A program made the position numbers and the translations under genes. A stretch of 64,000 bases of DNA from Paracoccus gahaiensis (lineage in GTDB: Bacteria > Pseudomonadota > Alphaproteobacteria > Rhodobacterales > Rhodobacteraceae): positions 1 to 64,000 of the forward strand of contig NZ_SUNI01000010.1 in NCBI RefSeq assembly GCF_005048225.1. The letters run 5' to 3'. Below are positions 41,055-58,979 of this stretch, piece after piece (within the stretch, counting starts at the first letter, position 1; the number at the start of each line of letters is the position of its first letter). The notes under the pieces are model-generated. The model was given only the letters and a program-made list of their open reading frames with translations. It did no database searches and was not told the origin of the DNA.

Positions 41055-41089
41055 GCCGCAACACCATCATCATCGGAGGAGGAACCAAG

Positions 41090-42028: not shown

Positions 42029-42032
42029 TCCT

Positions 42033-42057
42033 GCCGGGGGCCGCTACCCCGGCCCCC
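42033..42057 (+). promoter_or_regulatory. Intercistronic GC hairpin after the sugar-binding-protein gene
   Basis: Two alternative 7-bp stems are possible, GCCGGGG with CCCCGGC or GGGGGCC with GGCCCCC. They lie four to seven bases after the binding-protein stop codon and before the ATPase gene, with no T-run. This is the same placement as the hairpin after the amine-binding protein gene. Confidence 0.5.
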
Positions 42058-42086
42058 CATTGACGACACGTTGCAAAGGGCAGGCC

Positions 42087-43870: not shown

Positions 43871-45384
43871 CACATCCCGTTCCGACCGCCATCCACCTGC
43901 ACGACCGCGACAACATCATGGTGGCCCTGACGCCTCTGGCCCCGGGGGCGCCCGTCGCGGGTGACACGGTCGCCGCCGAGGCAATCCCCGCGGGCCACAA
44001 GATCGCCCTCCGCCCTATCGCGGCGGGCGAGCCGGTGCTGAAATACGGCCAGGTCATCGGCACGGCCACGCAGGCCATCGCTGCGGGCGCGCATGTGCAT
44101 ACGCAAAATCTGGGCATGGGCGCGCATCGGCAGGATTACGGGTTCGGCAGCGCCGTGGAGCCGCTGCCCGGCCTCGACGACTTGGCCTCGTTCCAGGGGT
44201 TCCACCGCCCCTCGGGCCGGGTGGGGACGCGCAACTATATCGGCATCCTGACCTCGGTGAACTGCGCGGGGTCCGTCGCGCGCTTCATCGCGGAAGAGGC
44301 CGAGCGTCAGGGATGGCTGGCCGATTACCCCCATGTCGACGGCATCGTGCCCATCGTGCACGGCACCGGCTGCGGCATGTCCGGGAAGGGCGAGGGATAC
44401 GAGACGCTGTTCCGCACCATCGCTGGCTATGGCCACAACCCGAACTTCGGCGCGATCCTGATGGTGGGTCTGGGCTGCGAGGTCATGCAGATCCCCGACC
44501 TGATCGACCGGCAGGCGCTGAAGGACAGCGCACGCTTCCGCTACATGACCATCCAGCAGACCGGAGGCACGCGCGCCACCGTCGACAAGGGTGTGGCCGT
44601 GCTGCGCGACCTGGCCGCCGAGGCGAACCGCGCCACGCGCCAGACCGCACCGGCCTCGAAACTGGTGCTGGGCATGCAGTGCGGCGGATCGGACGGCTAT
44701 TCGGGCATCACCGCCAACCCCGCGCTCGGCATCGCGTCTGACCTGCTGGTCGCGCAGGGGGGCATCTCGATCCTGTCGGAAACCTCCGAGATCTACGGCG
44801 CCGAACATCTGCTGACGCGCCGGGCCGATGCGGACACCGGTCGCAAGCTGATCGACCTGATCAAGTGGTGGGAGGAGTACACCGCCCGCAATTTTGGCGA
44901 GATGGACAACAACCCCTCGCCCGGCAACAAGCGCGGCGGCCTGACCACGATCCTGGAGAAGAGCCTGGGCGCCGTGGCCAAGGGCGGCAGCGCGCCCCTC
45001 TCGGCGGTCTATCGCTATGGCGAACCCATCGACCGGCCGGGCTTTGTCTTCATGGACAGCCCCGGCTATGATCCCTGCTCGGTCACCGGGCAGGTGGCAT
45101 CGGGCGCCAACCTGATCGCCTTCACCACCGGGCGGGGCAGCGTGTCGGGATACCGCCCCGTGCCCTGCATCAAGATCGCCTCGAACCCCGACCTGTGGCG
45201 CCGGATGGAGCCGGACATGGATGTCGATTGCGGAACGATCCTGTCCGGGGTCACCTTGAAGGAGAAGGGCCGCGAGATCTTCGAGCTGATGCTGGCGACC
45301 GCGTCGGGCACCGAGACGAAAAGCGAGGCGCAGGGCTTCGGCGCGGTCGAGTTCGTGCCCTGGCAGATCGGCGCGGTGATGTAA
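43867..45384 (+). CDS. UxaA-family sugar-acid dehydratase (probable L-fuconate/altronate-type)
   Basis: A 505-residue protein with an N-terminal SAF domain (AIPAGHKIALRPIAAGEPVL, YGQVIGTATQAIAAGAHVHT) and the C-terminal altronate/galactarate dehydratase domain (YIGILTSVNCAGSVARFIAE, GTGCGMSGKGEGYETLFRTI, MQCGGSDGYSGITANPA). The start is GTG 43867, overlapping the previous stop codon. By pathway logic it should dehydrate L-fuconate to 2-keto-3-deoxy-L-fuconate. Most characterised fuconate dehydratases are enolase-superfamily proteins, so the substrate is inferred. Confidence 0.83.
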   Translation: MTHPVPTAIHLHDRDNIMVALTPLAPGAPVAGDTVAAEAIPAGHKIALRPIAAGEPVLKYGQVIGTATQAIAAGAHVHTQNLGMGAHRQDYGFGSAVEPLPGLDDLASFQGFHRPSGRVGTRNYIGILTSVNCAGSVARFIAEEAERQGWLADYPHVDGIVPIVHGTGCGMSGKGEGYETLFRTIAGYGHNPNFGAILMVGLGCEVMQIPDLIDRQALKDSARFRYMTIQQTGGTRATVDKGVAVLRDLAAEANRATRQTAPASKLVLGMQCGGSDGYSGITANPALGIASDLLVAQGGISILSETSEIYGAEHLLTRRADADTGRKLIDLIKWWEEYTARNFGEMDNNPSPGNKRGGLTTILEKSLGAVAKGGSAPLSAVYRYGEPIDRPGFVFMDSPGYDPCSVTGQVASGANLIAFTTGRGSVSGYRPVPCIKIASNPDLWRRMEPDMDVDCGTILSGVTLKEKGREIFELMLATASGTETKSEAQGFGAVEFVPWQIGAVM

Positions 45385-45399
45385 GTGAAAGGAAGACCC

Positions 45400-46128
45400 A
45401 TGACAGCTACAGGCCTTGCCGGACAGCGCGTCCTGATCACCGCCGCCGCCCAGGGGATCGGCCGTGCCAGTGCAGAGGCCTTCCTCCGCGCGGGCGCCCA
45501 GGTCACCGCGACCGACATCAACGGGGACGGCCTGTCCGGGCTGGAGGGCTGCCGGACGGCGCGCCTCGACGTTCTGGACAGCGCGGCGGTGACGGAATTC
45601 TGCGCCGCTCTGGGACCGGTGGACGTGCTCTTCAACTGCGCGGGCGTGGTCCATGCGGGCAGCATCCTGGACATGCCCGATGCCGATCTGGACTTTGCCT
45701 TCGATCTGAACGTGCGCGCGATGGTGCGGATGATCCGGGCCGTGCTGCCGGGCATGATCGACCGGGGAGCGGGGGCGATCATCAACATGTCCTCGGTCGC
45801 GTCCTCGGTGAAGGGGGTGCCCAACCGCTTGGCCTATTCGACGACCAAGGCCGCCGTGCTGGGGCTGACCAAGTCGGTCGCGGCGGATTATGTCGGCCAG
45901 GGCATCCGCTGCAATGCGATCTGCCCCGGCACCGTGCAGTCGCCCTCGCTGGAGCAGCGCCTCGCCGCGACCGGCGACGCCGAGGCCGCCCGCGCCGCCT
46001 TCGTCGCCCGCCAGCCCATGGGGCGCATCGCCCGGGCCGAGGAAATCGCCGATCTGGCCGTGTATCTGGCCGGCGCAACCTATACCACGGGCCAGGCCGT
46101 CTGCATCGACGGCGGCTGGACCATCTGA
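45400..46128 (+). CDS. Short-chain dehydrogenase (probable 2-keto-3-deoxy-L-fuconate dehydrogenase)
   Basis: A 242-residue classical SDR. The cofactor motif is TAAAQGIGRAS, then NCAGVVHAG, catalytic Ser in INMSSVASS and the YxxxK pair in YSTTKAAVLG. It has the length and tail (TGQAVCIDGGWTI) typical of KDF dehydrogenases, which make 2,4-diketo-3-deoxy-L-fuconate with NAD. ATG 45400 follows AAAGGAAG; a GTG at 45385 is less likely. The FAH-family hydrolase next in line would use the product. Confidence 0.86.
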   Translation: MTATGLAGQRVLITAAAQGIGRASAEAFLRAGAQVTATDINGDGLSGLEGCRTARLDVLDSAAVTEFCAALGPVDVLFNCAGVVHAGSILDMPDADLDFAFDLNVRAMVRMIRAVLPGMIDRGAGAIINMSSVASSVKGVPNRLAYSTTKAAVLGLTKSVAADYVGQGIRCNAICPGTVQSPSLEQRLAATGDAEAARAAFVARQPMGRIARAEEIADLAVYLAGATYTTGQAVCIDGGWTI

Positions 46129-46143
46129 TCCGAGGGAGACGAC

Positions 46144-46986
46144 ATGAAACTTGTTCGCTTTGGGGCCAAGGGTGCCGAGACACCCGGCCTGATCGATGCC
46201 GAGGGCCGGATCCGCGACCTCTCCGCACATGTCCCCGACCTGTCGGGCGCGCATCTGCATGCCGACACGCTGGCCCGTCTGGCCGCCCTGGACCCGGCCT
46301 CGCTGCCGCTGGTCGAGGGGAACCCGCGCCTCGGCCCCCCGGTGGCGGGCACCGGCAAGTTCATCTGCATCGGCCTGAACTATGCCGACCATGCCGCCGA
46401 ATCCGGCATGGAGGTCCCGCCCGAGCCGGTGATCTTCATGAAGGCCACCAGCGCCATCTGCGGCCCCGACGATCCGATCGTCATCCCGCGCGGCAGCGAG
46501 AAGACCGATTGGGAGGTCGAGTTGGCCGTCATCATCGGCACGCCCGCCAAATATGTGACCGAGGCCGAGGCCATGTCCCATGTCGCGGGCTTCGCGGTGA
46601 CGAACGATGTGTCCGAGCGCGCCTTCCAGACCGAACGTGCGGGCCAGTGGACCAAGGGCAAGTCCTGCGACAATTTCGGCCAGCTGGGCCCCTGGCTCGT
46701 CACCCCCGACGAGGTCGCCGACCCGCAGGACCTGAGCATGTGGCTGAGCGTGAACGGCGCGAAAATGCAGGACGGCTCGACCCGGACGATGGTCTATCAG
46801 GTGCCCTTCCTGATCCATTACCTAAGCCAGTTCATGACGCTGCACCCGGGCGACGTGATCTCGACGGGGACACCGCCGGGCGTGGGCATGGGCATGCGCC
46901 CGCAGCGGTTCCTGAAGGCCGGAGACGTGGTCGAGCTGGGCATCGACGGCCTAGGCCAGCAGCGCCAGGACGTGATCGCCGACTGA
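46144..46986 (+). CDS. FAH-family hydrolase (probable 2,4-diketo-3-deoxy-L-fuconate hydrolase)
   Basis: A 280-residue fumarylacetoacetate hydrolase-like protein. IGLNYADHAAESG and EPVIFMKATSAICGPDDPI begin the catalytic fold, and metal ligands include the Glu residues in DWEVELAVIIG and the Asp in TNDVSERAFQ; GTPPGVGMG follows. It should cleave the diketo acid to pyruvate and lactate, finishing the pathway. It ends the operon; the next 439 bases contain no gene. Confidence 0.87.
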   Translation: MKLVRFGAKGAETPGLIDAEGRIRDLSAHVPDLSGAHLHADTLARLAALDPASLPLVEGNPRLGPPVAGTGKFICIGLNYADHAAESGMEVPPEPVIFMKATSAICGPDDPIVIPRGSEKTDWEVELAVIIGTPAKYVTEAEAMSHVAGFAVTNDVSERAFQTERAGQWTKGKSCDNFGQLGPWLVTPDEVADPQDLSMWLSVNGAKMQDGSTRTMVYQVPFLIHYLSQFMTLHPGDVISTGTPPGVGMGMRPQRFLKAGDVVELGIDGLGQQRQDVIAD

Positions 46987-47425
46987 ACGCGCTTCGGGTC
47001 AGTGGGCAGAGGCCCGCTGATCCAGGTCGCAGGTTATTGCCGCCAGTTGGGGGCGCGTGTCGCCGTGGTGATGAGCGGCCGGTTGCCGCACAAGCCGCCG
47101 AAGCACGGATTGGCGGTAACTATGGGATCAGGATTGGACCCAAAGCCTTCCGGTGTTGACCTGCTGCACACCCTGCCGCGTGGGAGCCGTTCCACGCGGC
47201 AGGGTGTGTATCATGTTGAACGGAAAGGCTCGGGCGAAGATGTTGGCGAGCGCTGGCTAAGATGCGTTTTGTCCGATCGTCAGCCGCTGCAATGGCGGTG
47301 GCAGGGCTGTCCTTGCCGACCTTAGGGCCGCGGCAGCGGGGCATGGCGATGGTCTGGTCCAATATCCCAAATTTGCCGATCGGCGCAGGGACGACAGCTG
47401 CCCTTCGGCACCGCAGGCCTGACCG
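46987..47425. other. Gene-free interval with a long hairpin
   Basis: 439 bases between two converging operons. No convincing coding sequence was found; open frames on both strands are short and unlike known families. A fragment KPPKHGLAVTMGSGLDPKP might be IS debris but is not identifiable. The main structure is the perfect hairpin at 47167-47208. Confidence 0.5.
47167..47208. repeat. Perfect 17-bp inverted repeat
   Basis: CACACCCTGCCGCGTGG and its exact complement flank an 8-base loop (GAGCCGTT). Neither side has a T-run, so it is not a canonical intrinsic terminator, although its place between converging genes would suit a bidirectional stop. It could also be a remnant of a mobile element end. 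Confidence 0.75.
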
Positions 47426-48817
47426 TCAGGTCGGCGTCCAGTCGGTGACGTTGTCCTGCTGGCGGCGCAACCGCAGCAAGTGGGACCCCTCGTCCAGATC
47501 GACATCGCCGCACAGGATGGGCCTGCCCGCCCGGACATCGCGCCGCAAGGCGCGGCCGGCGGCAAGATAATAGGGGATCGGCACGTCATCGCCCAAGGCC
47601 CGCGCGGGGGTCATCCGGCCCGAGACATGGGCGATGGTGTGGTGATGCCCCATGGCCGTCAGCACCGTGCCGGCGGACAGGTCCGCATCCGCGAAGGCCG
47701 TCAGGTCGATCACCGGCCGAGGCGCGACCGCACCCGAGGAGGTCGCCCTCAGCGCGGCCTCGAACACGGTCGTCGCGGCCTCCAGCCCCAGCAGATGGCG
47801 CGGCAGGCCGATCATCGCCGTGCGCCCGTCGGTCGAGACAACATGTCCCTTTTCGGCCAGCATCCCCCACGTCTCGGGATCGTCGCAGGCGACGGTGACG
47901 AACACGCCGCCCGCAAAGCTGGCCTCGCCGGGCAGGCGCAGGCAGTGGAACACGTCCAGACGCCCCTGCCCGGTTAGCAGGCCGCCGCGATCGGTCATCA
48001 GGTCCGCCACCTCGGCGATGCGGGCGATGGGCGCGTGCAGGTCGGCGCGGTCGGGCAGCAGCCCAAGCGCGTTGGCGACCAGCGTCAGTTCGCACAGATC
48101 CGGCACGGCGCGCTGCGGCAGGGCGGCGGCCAGATCCGCGCGAGCCTGCGCGATATCGGCCCAAGGGCGCTCGTCGGGCATCAGCCAGTCGGACAGGCCA
48201 GGCGCGTCAATCGAATGGCCGTTGCTGGTCAGCCCGCCCGTGGCGGGATCGAAGACGAAATCGTATTCGCTGGACTTGCCCGCCGCGATCACGTCCAGCC
48301 CGATCACCTGCGCCCAGGTTGCCAGCCCGATCAACAGGCTGGGTTGATCGCCATCCACCGGCGTCACCACCCTGCCCCGCGCGCGCGCCATGCGCGACAG
48401 GATCGGCCCCACGACGCTGTCGGTCTCCTTGGTGACCATGACCACGTGGCGGTCGGCCTCGATGGCCATCCGCGCATGGCGCGCGCCCGCCTCGGGGTCG
48501 CCGGTGGCCTCCAGCACGACATCGACGGGCAGACCCTCTGTTACCGCCAGATCGGCGGCGGCGATCCAGTGGCCCGCATCCCACGCGGCACGAGCCTGCG
48601 CCGCGTCCATGCAGGCGACGATCCGGCCTGGATCGACGCCGACCGAGGTCAGGGCCGACGCGGCGACAGATGCCTCGCGGTCGATGGCGATCCGGCAGGA
48701 CAGGCCCTGCACGCGCCGCGCCTGTGCCAGGAAGCTGCGGCCGAAGCCGCCGGTCCCGACGATGATGCAGTCGACCGTGCGGGTGCGGCGGGCGGCGAAA
48801 TGGTGATCCAGGTTCAT
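47426..48817 (-). CDS. Homoserine dehydrogenase-like NAD(P) protein with C-terminal SAF domain
   Basis: A 463-residue protein of the COG4091 type. The N-terminal Rossmann motif is CIIVGTGGFGRSFLAQA (about residues 18-34), and the middle has VDVVLEATGDPEAGARHA and VVMVTKETDSVVGP, as in homoserine dehydrogenase-like enzymes. The C-terminal SAF-like part includes ADLSAGTVLTAMGHHHTIAH. The substrate is unknown. It is the last gene in a leftward cassette with TctABC and PdxA- and DhaK-like enzymes, so it probably acts on a branched or four- to five-carbon sugar acid. ATG 48817 follows AAGGAGATC. Confidence 0.75.
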   Translation of the reverse strand: MNLDHHFAARRTRTVDCIIVGTGGFGRSFLAQARRVQGLSCRIAIDREASVAASALTSVGVDPGRIVACMDAAQARAAWDAGHWIAAADLAVTEGLPVDVVLEATGDPEAGARHARMAIEADRHVVMVTKETDSVVGPILSRMARARGRVVTPVDGDQPSLLIGLATWAQVIGLDVIAAGKSSEYDFVFDPATGGLTSNGHSIDAPGLSDWLMPDERPWADIAQARADLAAALPQRAVPDLCELTLVANALGLLPDRADLHAPIARIAEVADLMTDRGGLLTGQGRLDVFHCLRLPGEASFAGGVFVTVACDDPETWGMLAEKGHVVSTDGRTAMIGLPRHLLGLEAATTVFEAALRATSSGAVAPRPVIDLTAFADADLSAGTVLTAMGHHHTIAHVSGRMTPARALGDDVPIPYYLAAGRALRRDVRAGRPILCGDVDLDEGSHLLRLRRQQDNVTDWTPT

Positions 48818-50322
48818 GGCGCGATCTCCTTGCGGCGGCGCAGGCTCAGCGCCAGGCCAAGCGTCTTGGGCAGGATCAGCAGCGCCAGCGCCACCATCAT
48901 GATCCCCGTCACCAGCGGATTGGCAAAGAAGATCCCAAGCGAGCCGTCCGACAGCAGCATGGATTGATGGAACGAGTTCTCGGCCTTGTGGCCCAGAACC
49001 ATGGCCAGGATCAGCGGCGCCAGCGGATAATCCAGTTTGCTGAAGACATAGCCGACCAGACCAAAGGCCAGGACCAACCACAGATCGAACGTGGCGCTGC
49101 CGACGGTATAGGCGCCGACGAAGCAGATCACGACGATCATCGGCCCGATGATGGTGAACGGGATGCGCAGCAGGGCCGCGAACATCGGCACCGTCGCCAG
49201 CACCAGGATGACGCCCAGCAGGTTCGACACGTACATGCTGGCGATCAGGCCCCACACGAAATCGGGCTGGGTCGCGAACAGCATCGGACCCGGCGTCAGG
49301 CCCCAGATCATCAGACCACCCATCATCACCGCCGCCGTGGCCGACGAGGGCACGCCAAGCGCCAGCATCGGCAGCATGGCGCAGGTGCCCGCGCTGTGGT
49401 CGGCGGTCTCGGGCGCGACGATCCCCTCGGGGCGGCCGGTGCCGAAGGCCGCGCCCTTGCGGCTGGCCTGCCGCGCGACGCCATAGGACATGAAGCTGGC
49501 CGCCGTGGGCCCGCCCGGCGTGATGCCCATCCAGATGCCGATCAGGCCCGAGCGCAGGGTCGTGGCCCAGTATCGCGGCAGCTCGGCCAAGGTCTTCAGA
49601 ACATCGCGCAGGTCGATCTTGGAATTGACTCCGCGGAACCGCAGCCCCTCCTGCACGGTGGACAGCAGCTCTCCGATGCCGAAGAGGCCGATGACCACCA
49701 CCAGAAAGCTGACACCCCCCAGAAGGTCCGAGAAGCCATAGGTCAAGCGGATCGCGCCGGTCACCGTATCCATGCCCACCGAGGCCAGGATCAGTCCCGT
49801 GGTCAGCGACACCAGCGTCTTGGCGGGCGAGGCGCTGCCCATGCCGATGAAGGCGGCGAAGGCCAGGAAATAGACCGCGAAATATTCCGGCGCGCCGAAT
49901 TTCAGCGCGAATTGCGACGCCCATCCGGCCAGCAGGGTGATGACCATGATGCCCATCAGCGCCCCCACGCCGGACGACACGAAGGCCAGCGTCAGCGCGC
50001 GTGTGGACTCGCCGTTCCGGGCCATCGGATAGCCGTCGAAGGTGGTGGCGACGGAGGACGGCTCTCCGGGGATGTTGAAGAGGATCGAGGTGGTCGAGCC
50101 GCCGAACAGCGCCCCCCAATACATCGACGACAGCAGGATGATGGCCGAGGTCGGGTCCAGCGCGAAGGTCAGCGGGATCAGCAGCGAGACCCCGTTGGGC
50201 GCGCCCAGCCCCGGCAGCACGCCGACGACCAGTCCCATCAGCACCCCCGCCACCATCAGCATCAGATGCGTCGGCGTGATGGCGATGGAAAACCCGTGCA
50301 TCAGCAGATCGAAATTGCCCAT
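48814..50322 (-). CDS. tctA: Tripartite tricarboxylate transporter, large membrane subunit (TctA)
   Basis: A 502-residue membrane protein with about 11-12 hydrophobic segments. The TctA hallmarks are seen: GVLPGLGAPNGVSLLIPLTF, YWGALFGGSTTSILFNIPGE, GVPSSATAAVMMGGLMIWG. It is secondary active and works with the TctC receptor and TctB. It overlaps the SAF-domain dehydrogenase gene by 4 bases. The cargo is likely a carboxylate that feeds the enzymes of this cassette. Confidence 0.92.
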   Translation of the reverse strand: MGNFDLLMHGFSIAITPTHLMLMVAGVLMGLVVGVLPGLGAPNGVSLLIPLTFALDPTSAIILLSSMYWGALFGGSTTSILFNIPGEPSSVATTFDGYPMARNGESTRALTLAFVSSGVGALMGIMVITLLAGWASQFALKFGAPEYFAVYFLAFAAFIGMGSASPAKTLVSLTTGLILASVGMDTVTGAIRLTYGFSDLLGGVSFLVVVIGLFGIGELLSTVQEGLRFRGVNSKIDLRDVLKTLAELPRYWATTLRSGLIGIWMGITPGGPTAASFMSYGVARQASRKGAAFGTGRPEGIVAPETADHSAGTCAMLPMLALGVPSSATAAVMMGGLMIWGLTPGPMLFATQPDFVWGLIASMYVSNLLGVILVLATVPMFAALLRIPFTIIGPMIVVICFVGAYTVGSATFDLWLVLAFGLVGYVFSKLDYPLAPLILAMVLGHKAENSFHQSMLLSDGSLGIFFANPLVTGIMMVALALLILPKTLGLALSLRRRKEIAP

Positions 50323-50335
50323 TGGTCCCGGCTCC

Positions 50336-50851
50336 CTAGTAGATGCCCAGAAGCGGCTCCAGCGGCCCCTTCAGCAGCGGTATCTGAAAGGTCACCTCGA
50401 AGATGACATAGAGCGCCACGGCAAAGATCGCGCCAAGGCTCAGGCCGATCCACGGGCGGAACCCGCCCTGGCGCCACGCGCTCCACCCGATGTACAGCGT
50501 CGCCGCGACATAGAGGCCAAGCATCAGCGTGCCGATGACAAATGCGGTCATGGCGGCCAGGAACATCGCGACGCGGCCCAGATGGTCGCGGGGCAGGAAC
50601 GGATCCTCGGGGTCGTCCAGCGGGTCGGGGGGCGTGCGCAGCGCCTGGCGATGCGTGACGATGGCGCGGCCCAGATTCCACAGGCTTGCCCCGACCAGCA
50701 CGATCGCCACCCAGAAGGGGAAATACCCCGCCTGCGGGCCGTGATCGCCCCAACCGGTCCCCAGTTCGGCCGCGCCGATGATGGCAGCGACCCCCAGACC
50801 CCCGGTCACAAGTGCCGTGCCGATTTCGGCCTGATAGCGTTTGACGGTCAT
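50336..50851 (-). CDS. tctB: Tripartite tricarboxylate transporter, small membrane subunit (TctB)
   Basis: A 171-residue protein with four membrane spans (ALVTGGLGVAAIIGAAELG, FPFWVAIVLVGASLWNLG, VAMFLAAMTAFVIGTLMLG and a C-terminal LGAIFAVALYVIFEV), the DUF1468/TctB layout. ATG 50851 follows GGGGGGAGG; the frame is open further upstream but would run through the hairpin. It lies between tctC and tctA. Confidence 0.88.
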   Translation of the reverse strand: MTVKRYQAEIGTALVTGGLGVAAIIGAAELGTGWGDHGPQAGYFPFWVAIVLVGASLWNLGRAIVTHRQALRTPPDPLDDPEDPFLPRDHLGRVAMFLAAMTAFVIGTLMLGLYVAATLYIGWSAWRQGGFRPWIGLSLGAIFAVALYVIFEVTFQIPLLKGPLEPLLGIY

Positions 50852-50884
50852 GCGCCCCTCCCCCCTTGAGTTGTCGTGACAGGT

Positions 50885-50910
50885 GCCACCCGGGCTGCGG
50901 CCCGGGTGGC
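50885..50910 (-). promoter_or_regulatory. Intercistronic hairpin after tctC
   Basis: A perfect 11-bp stem (GCCACCCGGGC with GCCCGGGTGGC, loop TGCG) lies between the end of tctC and the start of tctB on the transcribed minus strand. There is no T-run. It is in the same position as the hairpins after the other two ABC binding-protein genes in the window. Confidence 0.6.
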
Positions 50911-50919
50911 CCCGTGGCA

Positions 50920-51918
50920 TCACTGCGCGGCGGCGGTGGTCCAGCCCTCGGCCTCGAACACCGTGACGGTCGCCGCCTCGTTTTCCGCGATGAAGGCGGT
51001 CAGCTCGTCCCCGGTCAGCGCGGCGGCGGTCTGCGAGGTCTTGGACAGGTAATCCTGCCATTCGGCGGTCGCCGCCACCTGGGTCAGGATGTCCTCATAA
51101 TACGCCACCACCTCGGGCTCGGTCCCGGCGGGCAGCCAGACCGTGCGCGGCATCTGATAGCGTTCGATGTCCAGCCCCTGCTCGACGCAGGTGGGGATGT
51201 CATGCCATCCCATGTCGCCGCTGACCGGCTCGGATTCCGCCATCCGCTCGGGCGAGAACACGCATAGCGGTCGGATCGCGCCGGCCTGCCACTGGCCGAT
51301 ATTCTCGTTGGGGTTGTTGACATTGGCCGCGACATGGCCCCCGGCCAGCTGCACGCCGACCTCTCCGCCGCCGTTGAAGGGGATGTATTTGAAATCCGCC
51401 CCGGTGGTCTGTTCGATCAGGGCGACCAGCGTCTCGTCGGTGTCCTTGGACTGGCTGCCGCCGAACACGATGCTGCCGGGTTCGGCCATCGCGGCCTCGA
51501 TCAGCTCCATCGGCGTCTGCCACGGCGCGTCGGCCTTGACCCAGATCAGGAATTCATCCAGCGCCAGCGCGGCGACCGGCTGCAGATCCTCGGCGGAATA
51601 GGCCAGCTGCGCCACATGCGGCAGCAGATAGACGTTATTGGTGCCGAAGATCAGCTTGTGCGGATCGGCGGCGTTCTGGCGGGCATAGAGAAACGCCTCG
51701 GCACCCGAACCGCCGCCCTTGTTCAGCACGACCATGTTGCGGTCCACGATCTCGTTGCGGGTCATCGCGGACTGGATGGTGCGGGCGAAGTTGTCGGTGC
51801 CGCCGCCCGCGCCGGATGCGACGACGAATTCGATCGGGCGCGTGGGCGCCCATTCGGCCAAAGCGGGGCCGGCGGTGCCGATGGCGGTGGCGGCGATCAG
51901 TGCGGATTTCAGGGTCAT
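50920..51918 (-). CDS. tctC: Tripartite tricarboxylate transporter substrate-binding protein (TctC/Bug)
   Basis: A 332-residue Bug-family receptor with a signal peptide (MTLKSALIAATAIGTAGPALA). Blocks such as RPIEFVVASGAGGGTDNFAR and VFGGSQSKDTDETLVALIEQ are typical. The ligand is normally a carboxylate held by water-bridged contacts, and no residue shows which one. It is the first transporter gene in transcription order, behind a PdxA homologue 64 bases away. Confidence 0.9.
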   Translation of the reverse strand: MTLKSALIAATAIGTAGPALAEWAPTRPIEFVVASGAGGGTDNFARTIQSAMTRNEIVDRNMVVLNKGGGSGAEAFLYARQNAADPHKLIFGTNNVYLLPHVAQLAYSAEDLQPVAALALDEFLIWVKADAPWQTPMELIEAAMAEPGSIVFGGSQSKDTDETLVALIEQTTGADFKYIPFNGGGEVGVQLAGGHVAANVNNPNENIGQWQAGAIRPLCVFSPERMAESEPVSGDMGWHDIPTCVEQGLDIERYQMPRTVWLPAGTEPEVVAYYEDILTQVAATAEWQDYLSKTSQTAAALTGDELTAFIAENEAATVTVFEAEGWTTAAAQ

Positions 51919-51982
51919 CTTGGGTCTCCTCCCTCAAGGTTGACCCGCGCCGCATGGCGCGGGGGTGTGCTATGGCGGCCCC

Positions 51983-53035
51983 TTACAGGGCAGCCATGGT
52001 GGCATGGGTATCCGCCCAGCCTGCGGGCAGCGCACGCGCCGGACCGCGATCGGGGTTCAGGCGGGCCAGATCAACACCAAGGCGCGCGGCCATCAGCGTG
52101 GCGCCCATATCGGCGCGTCCCTGCCCCGCGATGTCGAAGGCCGAGCCATGTGCCGGGGTCACGATCGGAAAGCCGTAGCCCGCGATCAGCGTGACGCCCC
52201 GGTCGAAGCCCATCAGCTTCATCGCGATCTGGCCCTGATCGTGATACATGGTCAGCACCGCGTCGAATTCGCCGCGCACCGCGCGCACGAAGACGGTGTC
52301 GGAGGGGATCGGGCCGGTGGCGTCGATCCCCTCGGCCCGGGCGGCGGCCACGGCGGGGGCCAGGATTTCGTCATCCTCGTGGCCGAAATTGCCGCCGTCG
52401 CCCGCATGGGGGTTCAGGGCCGCGACGCCGATCCGCGCGCCGGGCTTGCCCGCGCCGGCCATCACCTCGGCCGTCAGGCGCAGGCTGGCCAGGATGCGGT
52501 CGGTGTTCATTGCCGCCGCGACCTCGCGCAGCGGGATGTGGCTGGTGACGCGGGCGTTCCAGACCTCGTCCAGCACGTTGAATTCGCGGCCGCTCCGGGT
52601 GGTGTCCAGGATGGCGTTGATGAACCCGATCTCGTCGACATAAGCGGGACGGGCCAGGCGCATCGAATGCTTGTTGAAGGGTGTGAACATCGCCGCGTCC
52701 GCGATGCCCGCATGAGCCATCTGCAGCACGCAGGCAAAGTTCTGCAGGCTTGCCGCCCCGGTTGCCGGGTCGGACTGGCCCAGAACCACGCGGTCGGCGG
52801 GGCAATTGGCCAGATCCAGCAGCACATGGCCCCCCGCCATGCCGGGACCGACCTGGTCGGCGCGGATCACCGGCAGGTCCAGCCGGACCCCCGCATGGCG
52901 CGCGCCCATCGCCAGCGTCGTGGCGCAGCCCGCGACGATCACGTCATGGGCAGCCATCTCCGGATGGGTCAGCAATTTGGCGGCCAGTTCGGGGCCGACG
53001 CCCCCGGCATCCCCGATGGCGAGCGCGATGCGCAT
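51983..53035 (-). CDS. PdxA-family dehydrogenase (4-phospho-sugar-acid oxidative decarboxylase type)
   Basis: A 350-residue PdxA homologue. Metal-binding His residues lie in RVTSHIPLREVA, TMYHDQGQIAMK and VTPAHGSAFDIAGQGRAD, all present. Catabolic PdxA2 relatives oxidise and decarboxylate phosphorylated threonate or erythronate to dihydroxyacetone phosphate. Its company (carboxylate transporter, kinase, isomerase) supports a catabolic role; no pyridoxine genes are near. The initial motif MRIALAIGDAGGVGPELAAK is shifted from the canonical GDPAGIGPE, with Ala in place of Pro. Confidence 0.83.
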   Translation of the reverse strand: MRIALAIGDAGGVGPELAAKLLTHPEMAAHDVIVAGCATTLAMGARHAGVRLDLPVIRADQVGPGMAGGHVLLDLANCPADRVVLGQSDPATGAASLQNFACVLQMAHAGIADAAMFTPFNKHSMRLARPAYVDEIGFINAILDTTRSGREFNVLDEVWNARVTSHIPLREVAAAMNTDRILASLRLTAEVMAGAGKPGARIGVAALNPHAGDGGNFGHEDDEILAPAVAAARAEGIDATGPIPSDTVFVRAVRGEFDAVLTMYHDQGQIAMKLMGFDRGVTLIAGYGFPIVTPAHGSAFDIAGQGRADMGATLMAARLGVDLARLNPDRGPARALPAGWADTHATMAAL

Positions 53036-53095
53036 GGGCAGTCCTCCTGTCGAAACATGGGTCAGGCGGGGGCGCGACGGCGCCCGCGCGAAAAA

Positions 53096-54796
53096 TCAAT
53101 CGGCCAGCACTTCGGCCACGGTCCGGGCGCAGAGCGCCAGCGACACGGCCCCCGCATCGGGATGGCCGATGCTGCGTTCGGCCAAGGGCCGCGCGCGGCC
53201 AAGGCGCGGGGTCAGATGGGCGGTGGCATCTGCCGCGTCCGTCGCGGCCTGCGCCCCCCGGCTCCAGGCCTGCGCCAGGGGTGCGTCCGTGGTCTGCAGC
53301 GCCTCAACCAGCGGGACGAAGGCATCGACCAGGGTCTTGTCGCCCGGTTGTGCGCCACCCAAGCGCGTGACGGCCGTCAGCGCCGCCCGCGCGCCCTGCG
53401 CCACGCGAGCCGCATCGGGGGCCGCGTCGTCGCCCAGAACCTGACCCCAAGCCCGCAGGGCCACGCCCCACAGCGCGCCGGACGTGCCGCCCGCCCGATC
53501 CGCCCAGGCATCGCCGGCCAGCGCCAGGACGGTCCCCGGCCCTGCCCCTGCATCGACCGCCTGCCGCGCCGCATCGGCTGCGGCGGCGGAACCGCGCGCC
53601 ATGCCTTGGCCGTGATCGCCGTCGCCCGCGATGGCGTCGATGCGGCCCAGCTCGCCCTCGGCCCCGGCCAGCACGTCGGCCAGCCGCGCGATGACCCGGG
53701 CGATGCAGGGCGCCGCCGCCCGCCCCGCTGCCGAGGCTTGCGGGACGGCAGCAGCAGCATCGGCCACGCGCACGGCACCCCGATGCGGTGCGACCTGACC
53801 CGACGAGCCGCGCCGAAAGGCCGGCGTGTCGGCAGGAGCGGTCCACAGGGCCTCGAGTTCGTCATCCAGCCACAGGATCGACAGGGAGCATCCCTCCATG
53901 TCCAGGCTGGTCACGAACTCGCCGATCTCGGGGGCGACGGGGGTCAGGCCGTGATCCTTCAGCATCCCGGTCAGGTGATGCCACAGGACGAACAGTTCCT
54001 CGTATTTGGTGCGACCCAGACCGTTCAGCACCACCGCGACCCGGCCATCCTGGCCTGCCGGACGTTCCGCCAGCAACGGCTCCAGCAGCAACCGCGCCAG
54101 TTCGGCGGCGGGCACCAGAGGCTGGGTGCGGATGCCGGGCTCTCCGTGGATGCCCAGGCCCAGGGCCACCTGCCCCGCGGGCACGGTGAACAGCGGGGCT
54201 CCGTGGCCCGGCAGGGTGCAGCCGTCGAACGCCATCCCGAAGGACATCGTGCGGCTGTTGGCGCGCAGGGCGACATCCATCACCGCGTCCAGATCAAGAC
54301 CCGCCTCGGCGGCGGCACCGGCGATCTTGAAGACCAGCAGATCGCCCGCGACCCCCCGGCGGCGGGCCCGATCACCGGGACCGGCGCTGGCGATGTCATC
54401 GGTCACGGCCAGGATTCGCGCGTCGATCCCCTCGGCGCGCAGACGCTCGGCCGCCGCACCAAAGTTCAGCACGTCGCCCGCGTAATTCCCGAACCCCAGG
54501 ATCACGCCGCCCCCCGCCTCTGCCGCCCGTGCCACGCTGGCGATCGCGCTGGTCGAGGGCGAGGCGAAGACGTCGCCCGCCACCGCCGCATCCGCAAGAC
54601 CCGTGCCGACATAGCCCAGAAAGGCCGGGTAATGCCCGGACCCGCCGCCCACGACGACGGCGACCTTGCCCGGAGGCACCGCCCCGGCGCGCAGCGCGCC
54701 ATGGGGCACGGAAACCACATGACCGGGATAGGCCGCACAGAACCCGGACAGGGCGCTGGCCGCGAAATCCTCGGGACGGTCAAGGACGGATGTCAT
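53096..54796 (-). CDS. Dihydroxyacetone/erythrulose-type kinase, fused DhaK-DhaL
   Basis: A 566-residue ATP-dependent kinase. Residues about 1-330 are the DhaK domain (VAVVVGGGSGHYPAFLGYVG, GVILGFGNYAGDVLNFGAA, ALGLGIHGEPGI with the conserved His). Residues about 375-566 are the DhaL nucleotide domain (IDAIAGDGDHGQGMARGSAA, DRAGGTSGALWG). It phosphorylates a short ketose-like substrate; L-erythrulose kinases have this layout. ATG 54796 follows GGGAGGCC and overlaps the isomerase gene by 17 bases. The substrate here is unknown. Confidence 0.86.
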   Translation of the reverse strand: MTSVLDRPEDFAASALSGFCAAYPGHVVSVPHGALRAGAVPPGKVAVVVGGGSGHYPAFLGYVGTGLADAAVAGDVFASPSTSAIASVARAAEAGGGVILGFGNYAGDVLNFGAAAERLRAEGIDARILAVTDDIASAGPGDRARRRGVAGDLLVFKIAGAAAEAGLDLDAVMDVALRANSRTMSFGMAFDGCTLPGHGAPLFTVPAGQVALGLGIHGEPGIRTQPLVPAAELARLLLEPLLAERPAGQDGRVAVVLNGLGRTKYEELFVLWHHLTGMLKDHGLTPVAPEIGEFVTSLDMEGCSLSILWLDDELEALWTAPADTPAFRRGSSGQVAPHRGAVRVADAAAAVPQASAAGRAAAPCIARVIARLADVLAGAEGELGRIDAIAGDGDHGQGMARGSAAAADAARQAVDAGAGPGTVLALAGDAWADRAGGTSGALWGVALRAWGQVLGDDAAPDAARVAQGARAALTAVTRLGGAQPGDKTLVDAFVPLVEALQTTDAPLAQAWSRGAQAATDAADATAHLTPRLGRARPLAERSIGHPDAGAVSLALCARTVAEVLAD

Positions 54797-55733
54797 CGCG
54801 GGCCTCCCTCTGCGCCAAGATGCGGCGGATGTAATCACGGTTCTCGGCACAGACGGACAGGCCGTCCCCGCCATAATGCTCGACCAGGAATGGGCTGTCG
54901 AAGCCCAGGTCCAGCGCCTGGTCAATGGCGGCGCGCCAGTCGATGGTGCCGCCCAGCAGGGGCGCGGGATGGGTCATCACGGTGCCCCCCGCGCCCTCCA
55001 TCCGGTAGTAGTTCTTGACGTGCCAATATCCGGCATGAGGTGCGCACAGCGCGATCATCTCGGCCCAGGGCTCGACGGGGCGGTGCAGGCGGATCAGATT
55101 GCCGATATCGACATTCAGCTGCACGGACGGATGATCCACGTCGGTGACAAAGCGCACGGCCTCGCGCGCGGTGCCCAGATAGGTGTCCTCGTACATCTCC
55201 AGCGCGATCCGCACGCCGGCGGTCTGCGCATGGCGGCCCAGATCGCGGATGCGGGTGACGGCCAGCGCCCGGGTCTCGGGGTCGTCGGGGTTCTGCATGC
55301 CCGCCTCGGTCCAGAACCACAGGGCGGCGCGCTGCGCCGCCGTCAGCGGGCCGAACAGGCCGAAGCTGACATGCCCGATGCCCAGGTCCGCCGCGCAGTC
55401 GATGACCCGATGCGCGTAGTCGAGATACTCGGCCCCCCGCTCGGGATCGATGACGCTGCGCCGCGCGGTCGAGAGGGCTGGCACCGACAGGCCCAGATCC
55501 GCACAGATCGCCATGAACGCCGCCCGGCGGTCGGGCGTCAGGTCGGCGATCCGCAGCCAGCCATCCGTCGGATCGACCGCGTCGAAACCCGCCAATGCCA
55601 CGGCGCGCAAGTCGCGGGCCCAGACCTCGGGGGCGGCATCCTGCAGGATCGTGCCGTCGGGGCGCTGTCCCGGAAACGGGATCATCGCCGCCGCGATCGG
55701 CCAGTCCTGGGCGCTCCAGCGCATCGTGGTCAT
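54780..55733 (-). CDS. Sugar phosphate isomerase/epimerase (TIM barrel, AP-endonuclease-2 family)
   Basis: A 317-residue xylose isomerase-like TIM barrel. Metal-binding positions are suggested by IALEMYEDTYLG (Glu), NVDIGNLIRLH (Asp), YWHVKNYYRM (His) and FLVEHYGGDG (Glu). It is the first structural gene of the leftward cassette and overlaps the kinase gene. It probably isomerises the imported acid or its ketose derivative. It is divergent from the GntR gene with a palindromic operator in between. Confidence 0.82.
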   Translation of the reverse strand: MTTMRWSAQDWPIAAAMIPFPGQRPDGTILQDAAPEVWARDLRAVALAGFDAVDPTDGWLRIADLTPDRRAAFMAICADLGLSVPALSTARRSVIDPERGAEYLDYAHRVIDCAADLGIGHVSFGLFGPLTAAQRAALWFWTEAGMQNPDDPETRALAVTRIRDLGRHAQTAGVRIALEMYEDTYLGTAREAVRFVTDVDHPSVQLNVDIGNLIRLHRPVEPWAEMIALCAPHAGYWHVKNYYRMEGAGGTVMTHPAPLLGGTIDWRAAIDQALDLGFDSPFLVEHYGGDGLSVCAENRDYIRRILAQREARDDIRP

Positions 55734-55795
55734 CGATCCCTCCCCGAATCATCTCCCTGTCGATTGCTAGCATGGCCTCGCGACCGCATCAATAA

Positions 55796-55809
55796 TTCTG
55801 TATACAGAA
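55796..55809. promoter_or_regulatory. Candidate GntR operator, perfect 14-bp palindrome
   Basis: TTCTGTATACAGAA in the 147-base divergent spacer is a perfect palindrome of the GTnnAC type used by FCD-family GntR proteins. It lies 63 bases before the isomerase start codon and 72 before the regulator start codon, so one dimer could control both. Confidence 0.65.
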
Positions 55810-55880
55810 GACAATGAACAAGATTGACTTGTGGAGGGCGCGGCCTTAGCCGGAGGGAACGGCAGTCGGAGGCGGGACAC

Positions 55881-56576
55881 ATGGATCATCTTGATATGTC
55901 GGATCAGGGCGAACAGCGCATCGAGCGCCTGCCCCTGCACGAGGCCATCCTGAACCGGCTGCGCGACATGATCATCGAGGGGCACCTGCCTCCCGGCGCG
56001 CGCCTGAACGAAGGGCAGATCGGCCTGCAACTGGGCGTGTCGCGCACCCCCCTGCGCGAGGCAATTAAGTATCTGGCCAGCGAGGGTCTGGTCGAGTTGA
56101 TCCCAAGCCGCGGCGCCGTGGTCAAGACCTTCGGCGCCAAGGAGGTCCGCGACATGCTGGAGGTCGTGCGCATGCTGGAGCAGCAGGCGGGCGCGCTGGC
56201 CTGCCAGTTGGCCGACGACGCGGGTATCGCCCGCATCCGCAACCTGCATGACGACATGCTGGCCCATTACGCGCGGCGCGACCGGCTGGCCTATTACAAG
56301 GTCAACCAGGCGATCCATACCGGCATCGTGGCTCTGGCCCGGAACGAGGCGCTGTCGGACGTGCATGCGCGCCTGCAGACCCGCCTGAAGAGGGTCCGCT
56401 TCATCGGCCACGAGGGGGCCGAGAAATGGGCCAGTGCCGTCACCGAGCACGAGGAGATGATCGCCGCCCTCGAGGCGCGCGACGCCCCCCGCCTGACCGA
56501 GATCCTGGGTCGCCATCTGCGTCTGGCCTGGGACCGCGTGCGCCACGACATTCCCGGGGCGCCCGAGGTCGACTGA
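55881..56576 (+). CDS. GntR-family (FCD) transcriptional regulator
   Basis: A 231-residue regulator. The winged helix spans about residues 15-80 (PLHEAILNRLRDMIIEGHLP, LNEGQIGLQLGVSRTPLREA, LIPSRGAVV), followed by an FCD domain with metal-binding His residues in NQAIHTGIVALARN, TEHEEMIAALEARD and LGRHLRLAWDRVRH. ATG 55881 was preferred over upstream starts because of the GGAGGCGGG site. It is the likely regulator of the divergent Tct/PdxA/DhaKL cassette through the TTCTGTATACAGAA site. Confidence 0.87.
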   Translation: MDHLDMSDQGEQRIERLPLHEAILNRLRDMIIEGHLPPGARLNEGQIGLQLGVSRTPLREAIKYLASEGLVELIPSRGAVVKTFGAKEVRDMLEVVRMLEQQAGALACQLADDAGIARIRNLHDDMLAHYARRDRLAYYKVNQAIHTGIVALARNEALSDVHARLQTRLKRVRFIGHEGAEKWASAVTEHEEMIAALEARDAPRLTEILGRHLRLAWDRVRHDIPGAPEVD

Positions 56577-56690: not shown

Positions 56691-57722
56691 TTAGAAGGCG
56701 ATCTGCACCTTCATGGCACGGCTCCGATCCGAGGCCAAAGCGAACCCCTCGGCCGCGCGGTCCAGTGGCAGGGTGTGGCTGATCAGCGGGGACACGTCGA
56801 TCAGGCCTTGCCGCATCAGGGCGACCCCGGTGGCCAACTCTTCGTGGAAGCGGAAGCTGCCACGCAGATCCAGTTCCTTCGCAGTCAGCATCATCATCGG
56901 CAGACTCATGTCGCCGCCCAGCCCCAGTTGCAGCACGATACCGCGGGGGCGCATCGCAGCGATCCCCGCCACCAGCGCGGGCTGCGCCCCGGTGCATTCG
57001 TAAAGTACGTCGAAATGGCCCTTGTCGGCGGCAAAGCCCGCCAGACCGTCGGGATCGGTCTTGAGGTTCACAACCTGAGCCGCACCGACTCGGCGGGCGA
57101 GATCCAGCGTGTAGTCCGACAGCTCTGCGGCCAAGACCTCAGCCGCCCCCGCGCGCTGCGCCGACAGGATTGACAGCAGGCCGATCGGTCCGCAGCCTGT
57201 CACCAGCACCCGCGCGCCCAGCATGTCGCCCGCGCGCTTGGTAGCATGCAGGGTGACCGCCAGTGGTTCGGCCATGGCCGCCTGTCCCGGCGTCAGCCCG
57301 GTCGCGTCCACGCATTGCGCGGCATCCGCCACCAGCAATTCCCTAAATGCGCCCTGCACATGCGGGAACGGCATCGCCGAGCCATAGAACCGCATGTTCA
57401 AGCAATGGTTCGGCAGTCCTTTATGGCAGAACCGGCAATCCCCGCAGGGCCGCGACGGCGACACGGCGACCAGCTGGCCGGGCGCGAACCCGGTCACGCC
57501 TTCACCCAAAGCCTTTACATGGGCAGAGACTTCGTGGCCCAGGATCATCGGTTCCTTCAGTCGGATCGCGCCGAAGCCGCCATGGTTGACGTAATGCAGG
57601 TCGGACCCGCAGATCCCCCCCACGGCCAGGCGCAGCAGCAGCTGGCCCGGGCCGGGGGTCGGGTCGGGTCGATCCTCAATGCGCAGATCGTGGGCGGCGT
57701 GAATGACAAGTGCGCGCATCAC
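56691..57722 (-). CDS. idnD: L-idonate 5-dehydrogenase-like zinc alcohol dehydrogenase
   Basis: A 343-residue MDR dehydrogenase. Catalytic Zn motifs are GGICGSDLHYVNHGGFG and GHEVSAHV, structural cysteines are in CGDCRFCHKGLPNHC, and the cofactor motif is TGCGPIGLLSILSA. The HYVNHGGFG block is typical for IdnD. It would oxidise L-idonate to 5-ketogluconate. The ATG overlaps the end of the truncated 2-hydroxyacid dehydrogenase gene, so its original upstream operon and promoter appear to be lost. Confidence 0.87.
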   Translation of the reverse strand: MMRALVIHAAHDLRIEDRPDPTPGPGQLLLRLAVGGICGSDLHYVNHGGFGAIRLKEPMILGHEVSAHVKALGEGVTGFAPGQLVAVSPSRPCGDCRFCHKGLPNHCLNMRFYGSAMPFPHVQGAFRELLVADAAQCVDATGLTPGQAAMAEPLAVTLHATKRAGDMLGARVLVTGCGPIGLLSILSAQRAGAAEVLAAELSDYTLDLARRVGAAQVVNLKTDPDGLAGFAADKGHFDVLYECTGAQPALVAGIAAMRPRGIVLQLGLGGDMSLPMMMLTAKELDLRGSFRFHEELATGVALMRQGLIDVSPLISHTLPLDRAAEGFALASDRSRAMKVQIAF

Positions 57723-58420
57723 AGCACCGCCGTGGGCAGCGGTTGGCCCGCGAAATGCGCCGTCAGATTGTCGCGCAGCAGCTGGCCCATGGCCTGCCGT
57801 GTCTCATACGTGCCCGAGGCGTGGTGCGGCTGCAGCAGCACGTTCTTCAGCGCCAGAAAGCGGGGGTTCAGCGCCGGTTCGCCCTCGAACACATCCAGCG
57901 CAGCAGAGCCAAGGCGGCCCGCCTCCAGCGCATCCAGCAAGGCAGTTTCGTCAATGTTCGATGCGCGCGAGATGTTGACCAACATACCTTCGGGGCCAAG
58001 CGCCTCGATCACCTCGCGGCGCACGATATGGCGCGTAGCGGCGGATGCGGCCAGCGTTACGAAGAGCACGTCGGACTGCGCGGCCAAGGCCACCGGGTTG
58101 GCCACAAACTGCCAGTCGGGATGAGCGTGATCGCGGGGCGAGACCTCGCCATAGCTGATCTGCATGTCGAAGCCCTGCAAGCGCTTGGCGACCTCGAACC
58201 CGATCCGGCCGAGGCCTAGAATGCCCGCGCGCTTGCCCCAGATCCGGCGCTGTAGCGGGTACAGACCCTTTTCCGCCCAGGACCCGTCGCGGACCCACCG
58301 CTCGGCCCCGATCATGCCGCGTGATTGCACGAGCATCATCGCCACCCCCAGGTCGGCAACATCCGCGGTCAGCACGTCAGGCGTGTTCGTCACCCGGATG
58401 CCGCGCGCCCGACACGCCGA
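57719..58420 (-). pseudogene. D-2-hydroxyacid dehydrogenase, 5'-truncated
   Basis: About 234 codons of a GhrB/SerA-type dehydrogenase survive. The NAD motif GILGLGRIGFEVAKRLQGF, the catalytic Arg in NISRASNIDETALLDAL, the Glu in DVFEGEPALNPRF and the His in QPHHASGTYETR are intact. The first roughly 75 residues (N-terminal half of the catalytic domain) are missing: recognisable sequence starts at CRARGIRVTNTPDVLTADVA. Further upstream the frame is antisense to a truncated SDR gene. No proper start codon or promoter is evident. The complete gene would be about 310 residues. Confidence 0.82.
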
Positions 58421-58979
58421 CCATGCGGGCGTGCGCGCGGCCGTGGACGGCTTCGAGGCGGAGCACGGCGCCATCGACATCCTGGTGAACAACGCCGGCA
58501 TGCAGTTCCGCGCGCCGCTGGAGGAGTTTCCGGCGGACGCCTTCCAGCAGCTGCTGCAGACCAACGTGGCCTCGGTCTTCAATGTCGGTCAGGCGGTGGC
58601 GCGGCACATGATCGGGCGCGGCGCGGGGCGGATCATCAACATCGCCAGCGTGCAGACGGCCCTCGCGCGGCCCTCGATCGCGCCCTACACGGCGACCAAG
58701 GGCGCGGTGGGCAACCTGACCAAGGGCATGGCCACCGATTGGGCGCGCCACGGATTGACCTGCAACGCCATCGCGCCGGGCTATTTCGACACGCCGCTGA
58801 ACGCCGCGCTGGTGGCCGATCCCGAATTCACCACCTGGCTGGAAAGGCGCACCCCCGCCGGCCGGTGGGGCCGGGTCGAGGAGCTGGTCGGCGCCTGCGT
58901 GTTCCTGGCCTCGGACGCGTCCAGCTTCGTGAACGGGCACGTGCTGTATGTCGACGGCGGCATCACGGCGTCGCTGTGA
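58420..58979 (+). pseudogene. SDR dehydrogenase (gluconate 5-dehydrogenase-like), 5'-truncated
   Basis: About 185 codons of an IdnO-type SDR remain. DILVNNAGMQFRAPLEEFP, catalytic Ser in INIASVQTALA and the YTATKGAVG pair are present, as is the tail VNGHVLYVDGGITASL. The N-terminal 65-70 residues, including the TGxxxGIG cofactor motif, are absent. An in-frame ATG at 58398 exists but falls inside the antisense dehydrogenase remnant. Without the Rossmann motif the protein should be inactive. It still overlaps the gntK start by GTGA. Confidence 0.82.

Follow-up and report, generated by a model that had tools for sequence, protein, structure and literature searches.

The window analysed here comprises the first 64,000 bases of a 138,594-base contig (C80) from the 4.18-Mb genome of Paracoccus gahaiensis. 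At positions 47426–56576 it carries eight genes, seven of which lie on the minus strand and encode a tripartite tricarboxylate (TTT) transporter (TctA, TctB and TctC), a PdxA homologue, a DhaK-DhaL fusion kinase (DhaKL), a xylose-isomerase-like TIM barrel (TIM) and a DRL/DXR-II-like NAD(P) oxidoreductase with a SAF domain (DLO), while a GntR/FCD regulator is encoded divergently on the plus strand. On the strength of its gene content and of its relatives, we rate the chances as about even that this is a GntR/FCD-controlled catabolic cassette for a five-carbon aldonate (pentonate), which would be degraded via a tetrulose to erythrose-4-phosphate, with DLO as a second entry. A sequence-only reading had proposed eight genes around one operator; all eight were found, with a single palindrome between the divergent units. 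Its view that carboxylate import, an isomerase, a kinase and a PdxA-type oxidative decarboxylase are united in one regulated unit, unlike the threonate/erythronate, apionate and erythrulose routes it named, was also borne out. Genes were assigned by tblastn panels, by family scans and from the annotation of records, and open reading frames read by eye are marked as such; the gene caller mis-called some GC-rich antisense frames and overlooked some genes.

The eight-gene grouping is a conserved cassette and not a product of chance, since Paracoccus liaowanqingii has the identical eight genes in identical order and a core of PdxA, TIM, DhaKL and TctA occurs together in 52 of 80 loci with TIM. These loci are the best 80 of at least 499 found with a TIM alignment as query, and some are truncated by contig ends; because only the best were retained, the sample is biased towards close relatives and one genus. 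DhaKL is present in 67 of them, a GntR regulator in 66, PdxA in 61, TctA in 55 and DLO in 20, whereas OtnK (16), DenD (11), DerI (7) and a gene like triose-phosphate isomerase (TPI-like; 6) are rarer. The core together with DLO was found in 19 loci. Among the core-bearing loci, those of Ensifer, Brucella (ex-Ochrobactrum) and Sinorhizobium mostly read PdxA-TctCBA-TIM-DhaKL and lack DLO, and those of Paracoccus read TIM-DhaKL-PdxA-TctCBA-DLO-OtnK. Indeed, OtnK follows DLO in all 15 DLO-bearing loci of Paracoccaceae, and the five remaining DLO loci (L050, L057, L088, L106, L110) have no OtnK behind DLO. OtnC follows the OtnK-bearing stretch in L005, and most other loci stop within OtnK. Past DLO, P. 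liaowanqingii carries an IS630 transposase. In the openly licensed literature searched for this gene set no such cluster was described, nor did the papers listed on apionate, tetronate and erythrulose enzymes give a match, in agreement with the earlier statement that no described route with the same set is known. Provisionally, the route may be regarded as not yet described in print.

The PdxA homologue (51983–53035, minus strand; Pfam PdxA, 4.3e-73) keeps the three metal-binding His residues and the Lys of the PdxA superfamily in 78 of 78 aligned rows (window and loci). It reached 222.9 bits compared to a cut-off of 290.35 for true PdxA (NCBIfam model) and 178.2 bits compared to 583 for PdxA2, the D-threonate-4-phosphate dehydrogenase. 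Positions are given in the numbering of Escherichia coli PdxA (K274, N283, R292), and we take these to be substrate-site residues. At the equivalents of N283 and R292 the window protein has Thr and Ile, and Thr and Ile/Leu were found in all 73 distinct homologues of this type (74 rows; 67 from TIM-bearing loci including the window, five from operons with DLO and Tct genes, and one from L006). Three PdxA-type enzymes that use phosphorylated substrates served as comparison, namely two PdxAs of the same genome that exceed the cut-off and one annotated D-threonate-4-phosphate dehydrogenase, and each of them has the Asn/Arg pair. A dihydrodiol dehydrogenase, which was judged to act on an unphosphorylated substrate because of its ring-hydroxylating dioxygenase neighbours, has Ala/Phe at these positions. 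PdxA enzymes oxidise C3 of their substrate and then release C1. From the residue changes we infer an unphosphorylated acid as substrate, which would make the protein an NAD-dependent oxidative decarboxylase of a free aldonate. Since the Asn/Arg pair of phosphorylated-substrate PdxAs is lost, phosphorylation probably comes after decarboxylation, with DhaKL acting on the resulting ketose.

DhaKL (53096–54796, minus strand; Pfam Dak1, 2.3e-109, and Dak2, 4e-46) scored 737 bits compared to a cut-off of 492 for NCBIfam subfamily PRK14479, whose label "dihydroxyacetone kinase family" names no further substrate. Classically, DhaK-type kinases act on dihydroxyacetone. Seven of the 67 TIM-DhaKL loci (L074, L075, L091, L100, L102, L106, L109), five of them with both, have a DerI and/or TPI-like gene next to these two genes, as does an Arthrobacter plasmid locus (L116). 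Of the DerI proteins in these seven loci three were checked; with 247.9, 257.4 and 249.5 bits they exceed the cut-off of 240 for D-erythrulose-4-phosphate isomerase. Three TPI-like proteins, including that of the P. gahaiensis genome itself, lie above the cut-off of the TPI model, and those of L091 and L116 just below it.

DerI also accompanies TIM across genomes. Among 292 genomes of the order Rhodobacterales, to which the window belongs, seven have TIM and 21 have DerI above the cut-off; the latter comprise all seven TIM genomes and 14 of the 285 others (Fisher p 3.5e-9, kinship ignored). Within the genus, DerI is found in five of five TIM genomes and in four of 16 others (p 0.006, kinship again ignored). 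The P. gahaiensis DerI gene lies on a contig other than that of the cassette (C77, 101182–101631) and is accompanied by a TPI-like gene (412 bits compared to 293 for the TPI model), a DeoR regulator and a transketolase gene. Genes for glycerol kinase and glycerol-3-phosphate dehydrogenase are also present nearby (C77, 92000–111900), and the region is possibly an erythrose-4-phosphate module. Because DerI and TPI-like isomerases adjoin or co-occur with the cassette, a dihydroxyacetone kinase would need no tetrose isomerases and the fold of TIM is like that of ketose 3-epimerases, a tetrulose is favoured over dihydroxyacetone as substrate of the kinase. We accordingly word the favoured outcome as a tetrulose phosphate that would end as erythrose-4-phosphate, which would imply a C5 acid at the start. 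The sequence-only reading lacked this likely four-carbon exit by way of DerI and TPI-like isomerases, and also OtnK/OtnC as companions of DLO in relatives.

The "TIM isomerase" of that reading (54780–55733, minus strand; Pfam AP_endonuc_2, 2.8e-32) is a TIM barrel, but of the xylose-isomerase/ketose-3-epimerase type and not a triose-phosphate isomerase. Its AlphaFold model (pLDDT 84.5) matches 5TNV of Mycobacterium smegmatis (46% identity; PDB match 7.9e-89) with a Z score of 38.7 and a root-mean-square deviation (rmsd) of 3.1 over 301 aligned residues. After 5TNV, the nearest solved relatives in the profile search are ketose 3-epimerases, and the next fold matches are SCO6571, Art22 and many ketose 3-epimerases with Z scores of 24–28. 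Of the 50 fold matches listed, 34 are ketose 3-epimerases or are named like them, many of these repeating the same enzymes. One is 5H1W (Z 24.8, rmsd 2.7 over 255), the structure of an L-ketose 3-epimerase with L-erythrulose. E179, D209 and H238 occur in 94 of 94 aligned rows and E285 in 93, with one gap (88 distinct sequences); this acidic/His tetrad, shared with the ketose 3-epimerases, presumably provides the metal ligands. TIM reached the cut-off of no curated epimerase model (36.5 bits compared to 200 for PRK13210, 27.4 compared to 300 for PsicseEpim). Since IolE, AsbF and xylose isomerases also occur among the fold matches, the reaction cannot be read from the fold alone, and the assignment as a C4-ketose 3-epimerase or isomerase is a proposal.

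Besides its association with DhaKL, TIM has a DenD-like neighbour in 11 of the 80 loci, and according to this it could instead be a C4 oxo-acid isomerase. Eight such loci from Acetobacteraceae (L061, L068, L070, L078, L079, L084, L093, L096) contain neither DhaKL nor PdxA. A C4 2-keto compound may be common to both contexts, i.e. 2-oxo-tetronate in the DenD loci and erythrulose in the cassette. In the eight Acetobacteraceae loci two MFS-type transporter genes are linked to TIM, and five of them also contain 3-hydroxyacyl-CoA-dehydrogenase-like and FMN lactate-dehydrogenase-like genes. A Rhizobium ruizarguesonis plasmid (L017, 7752–17994) carries two PdxA homologues in facing operons, one with TctCBA-DLO and the other with TIM-DhaKL, the TIM frame of which looks shortened.

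DLO (47426–48817, minus strand) contains the DRL catalytic domain and the SAF domain (Pfam DRL_cat, 2.2e-17; SAF, 8.5e-5), as does DXR type II, and 3UPL/3UPY (2.7e-28) were the only solved relatives found. It had been described as a homoserine-dehydrogenase/SAF protein; the SAF part was correct, while the homoserine dehydrogenase model gave 19.3 bits compared to a cut-off of 373. One report describes DXR-II together with two uncharacterised families of the same superfamily, DLO1 and DLO2, and gives the fosmidomycin anchors of DXR-II as Lys191, Lys193 and Thr229 (PMC3847144). The window protein and its relatives with 39% identity or more, 36 distinct sequences together, all keep Lys191 and all have Ser in place of Lys193 and Asp in place of Thr229, position 229 being located from the neighbouring position 230 of 3UPL. 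DXR-II activity was rejected for DLO on the replacement of these two anchors. DLO is a relative of DXR-II and, as its homologues are often neighbours of 3-oxo-tetronate kinase genes, probably serves as a separate entry for acids.

A DLO homologue occurs in 109 plasmid records, and its surroundings were inspected in 20 of these. OtnK and OtnC adjoin DLO in Palleronia, Alloyangia, P. versutus, P. denitrificans, Comamonas, Klebsiella, Agrobacterium and Ancylobacter; PdxA and TctCBA adjoin it in Rhizobium, Phyllobacterium and Roseomonas, and Paracoccus TOH has both sets. In A. leguminum a separate classical threonate set lies near DLO. Two distant homologues (L022, L023; 29–32% identity) have no OtnK, OtnC, PdxA or TctCBA beside them. 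In a tree, the DLOs linked to PdxA are interleaved with those linked to OtnK, several rows having long branches, and nothing else was drawn from it. Ten of the 292 genomes contain DLO, and 3-oxo-tetronate kinase (OtnK) was found in all ten compared to 123 of 282 others (p 3e-4, kinship ignored); in six of the ten the kinase gene is no more than 5 kb away from DLO, and in four it is on another contig. The only OtnK match of the P. gahaiensis genome is on contig C6. A search for OtnK/OtnC behind the window DLO (46501–47600, E up to 10) gave nothing convincing, and a remnant of these genes was rejected because the best OtnK match covered 25 amino acids with an E value of 0.035. The simplest role for DLO would be the direct formation of a 3-oxo acid, by dehydrogenation or a carbon shift, in place of LtnD/DenD plus OtnI. 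A second DLO homologue of the genome (L114 on contig C22, positions 1957–3468 of that locus; 29% identity) lies beside TRAP-transporter-like genes and has GKGMN instead of GKSSEY. In a branch with 33–34% identical DLOs, the DLO-OtnK-OtnC-TctCBA cluster further includes an Asp/Glu-racemase-like gene (L014, 13421–14095; L021, 11449–12105).

From gene content, conservation, residue changes and the co-occurrence with DerI and OtnK we infer the reactions, the substrate, the carbon number and the direction of the route as follows. The acid would enter through TctABC. The PdxA homologue would oxidise the C3 hydroxyl of the free acid and decarboxylate it to a tetrulose (erythrulose), TIM would epimerise or isomerise this C4 ketose and DhaKL would phosphorylate it. 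Isomerases of the TPI-like (EryH/LerI-type) and RpiB-like (DerI) families would then yield erythrose-4-phosphate, which may enter the pentose-phosphate pathway. As a second entry, DLO would deliver a 3-oxo acid to a 3-oxo-tetronate kinase and decarboxylase (OtnK/OtnC), homologues of which are encoded on another contig. The routes from erythritol and erythrulose to erythrose-4-phosphate employ EryH/EryI or LerK, LerI and DerI. They resemble the cassette in combining a DhaKL-type kinase with TPI-like and RpiB-like isomerases, which occur together in L074, L091, L100, L102, L106 and L116; they start from a polyol, whereas the cassette is proposed to start from an imported acid that is decarboxylated. 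Isomerases as in the L-erythrulose route are encoded in the P. gahaiensis genome, with DerI at its cut-off and the TPI model not specific for EryH/LerI.

One source gives L-lyxonate and L-xylonate as C5 acids from plant ascorbate breakdown (PMC11066805), and another the related 2-oxo-L-threo-pentonate (PMC6225978). C5 acids of this origin would fit chemically, as they could lead to L-erythrulose, and would also suit those relatives whose hosts are plant-associated. The more specific idea that PdxA-type enzymes of this kind convert free L-pentonates (L-xylonate/L-lyxonate) to L-erythrulose and on to erythrose-4-phosphate, with DLO as a new class of dehydrogenase or oxidoisomerase replacing LtnD/DenD plus OtnI, appears rather doubtful on present comparisons. 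If the pentonate route is true, it would give a function to three orphan groups, i.e. PdxA homologues labelled as vitamin B6 enzymes, the DLO subfamily and TIM barrels of the 5TNV type, and would add a direct way from an acid to erythrose-4-phosphate in rhizobia, Paracoccus and relatives. Public records would then mislead where they call cassette genes "PdxA", "homoserine dehydrogenase" or "flagellar biosynthesis protein FlgA".

Several observations weigh against the pentonate route. DerI or TPI-like neighbours occur in a minority of the TIM-DhaKL loci (7 of 67), and in one of the loci where TIM has a DenD-like neighbour (L109), DhaKL is present together with a TPI-like gene. The Arthrobacter DerI homologue scored 160 bits compared to the DerI cut-off of 240 and exceeds the cut-off for actinobacterial ribose-5-phosphate isomerase; moreover, its locus lacks PdxA and has a 3-hydroxyacyl-CoA-dehydrogenase-like gene. 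DerI of the P. gahaiensis genome is itself borderline, with 237.4 bits when a piece that is slightly too short was scored or 239.8 bits, which is listed as reaching 240. The TPI-like genes were scored with ordinary TPI models, which are unable to separate EryH/LerI from TPI, and the Fisher tests on DerI and OtnK ignore the relatedness of the genomes. The presence of DerI could also mirror the use of erythritol, and two of the four DLO genomes without TIM (G066, G159) carry DerI as well. Loss of the Asn/Arg pair is not specific to the cassette, as it is also seen in L006, where the PdxA homologue belongs to a threonate-type operon. Finally, the position of DLO in the operon of PdxA is unexplained if PdxA yields the ketose directly.

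Among the alternatives, a four-carbon route survives best, although we regard it as unlikely. Here tetronates would be converted to dihydroxyacetone and CO2, either by PdxA or by DLO together with TIM as a 2-oxo-/3-oxo-tetronate isomerase, and DhaKL would form dihydroxyacetone phosphate. This agrees with the classical substrate of DhaK-type kinases, with the OtnK/OtnC genes adjoining DLO homologues, of which the pair in Paracoccus TOH exceeds the 3-oxo-tetronate cut-offs (557.6 compared to 350 and 289.7 compared to 250 bits), and with a D-erythronate dehydrogenase next to TIM in L108 (453.9 compared to 325 bits). It leaves DerI beside the kinase and in seven of seven TIM genomes unexplained, and with PdxA alone forming dihydroxyacetone TIM would be without work. 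Furthermore, contig C6 of the genome already carries DenD, OtnI, OtnK and LtnD above their cut-offs, an OtnC homologue with a class II aldolase domain (42.5% identity to OtnC of Paracoccus TOH) and a GntP transporter. The cassette substrate is therefore probably another acid, and L-threonate or D-erythronate as main substrate was rejected because the classical genes are located elsewhere. The catabolism of these two acids that Zhang et al. reportedly described in 2016 proceeds by LtnD/DenD, OtnI, OtnK and OtnC. It shares sugar-acid import, NAD-dependent oxidation, a kinase and CO2 loss with the cassette, and its OtnK/OtnC are the neighbours of DLO homologues. Nevertheless, the eight proteins match none of its models (ThreonDh, ErythonDh, OxoTetrIsom etc.), and LtnD, DenD and OtnI lie outside the cassette.

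D-apionate or another branched acid as substrate is considerably less probable than the pentonate. DLO would act as an oxidoisomerase with chemistry like DXR-II in reverse, giving a 3-oxo acid and then L-erythrulose for phosphorylation by DhaKL. Alkyl migration is the chemistry of the DXR-II superfamily, and one described apionate route passes through L-erythrulose; yet DLO is missing from most core cassettes, being found in only 20 of the 80 TIM loci, and none of the eight proteins matches a 3-oxo-isoapionate kinase of the OiaK type (DUF1537).

Least probable, and by a wide measure unlikely, is a scheme in which the acid is imported, isomerised and phosphorylated by DhaKL before PdxA decarboxylates the phosphorylated acid: the nearest solved PdxA relatives are indeed D-threonate-4-phosphate dehydrogenases (6E85, 2HI1), but the kinase-before-PdxA order, also put forward by the sequence-only reading, was rejected since all 73 distinct homologues lack two substrate-site residues of the phosphorylated-substrate PdxAs compared, and PdxA+TctCBA+DLO occurs without DhaKL or OtnK in about 25 kb of L010, L011, L015, L016, L019 and L020 (in L010 a sugar kinase is annotated on the opposite strand). 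The known D-threonate route, which uses the kinase DtnK and PdxA2, has PdxA-type oxidative decarboxylation in common with the cassette; the cassette differs in lying below the PdxA2 cut-off, in lacking a D-threonate kinase match and in the loss of the Asn/Arg residues.

The remaining genes of the minus strand encode all three components of the TTT transporter, i.e. the large membrane subunit TctA (48814–50322; Pfam TctA, 1.3e-140), the small membrane subunit TctB (50336–50851; Pfam TctB, 8.1e-16) and the periplasmic receptor TctC (50920–51918; Pfam TctC, 5.8e-25). The DLO and TctA genes overlap by 4 bp and the kinase and TIM genes by 17 bp. The open reading frame of the regulator (plus strand; Pfam FCD, 1.3e-20, and GntR, 2.7e-17) opens at a TTG at 55824, and the ATG at 55881 is the likelier start (55881–56576). 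In the gap separating the two divergent transcripts lies the perfect palindrome TTCTGTATACAGAA (55796–55809), which occurs once in the window and is presumed to be the operator of the cassette. Its core TGTATACA was found in 22 of 72 gaps next to divergent GntR genes in related loci (some genomes counted twice), where less than one copy is expected, each gap being at most 0.85 kb long; 15 copies occur in the 1,147,052 bases elsewhere in those loci. The exact TGTATACA core was not found in the other 50 gaps, including most loci of the Ensifer/Brucella type, and the operator assignment is thus mainly valid for Paracoccus.

Further genes were noted on either side of the cassette. Positions 37169–46986 form a deoxysugar-acid region with a fuconolactonase-like amidohydrolase, a galactarate-dehydratase-like protein, an SDR protein and a homologue of 2,4-didehydro-3-deoxy-L-rhamnonate hydrolase (428 bits compared to a cut-off of 500) as well as, read by eye, an aldo-keto reductase, a GntR regulator and a sugar ABC transporter; this is probably an oxidative L-fucose/L-rhamnose route. 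On the other side (56691–60360) L-idonate 5-dehydrogenase-like, 2-hydroxyacid dehydrogenase and tartronate-semialdehyde-reductase-like genes are located, with an SDR gene and a gluconokinase-like frame, both read by eye, in between. A set similar to the latter genes also flanks the cassette in P. liaowanqingii.

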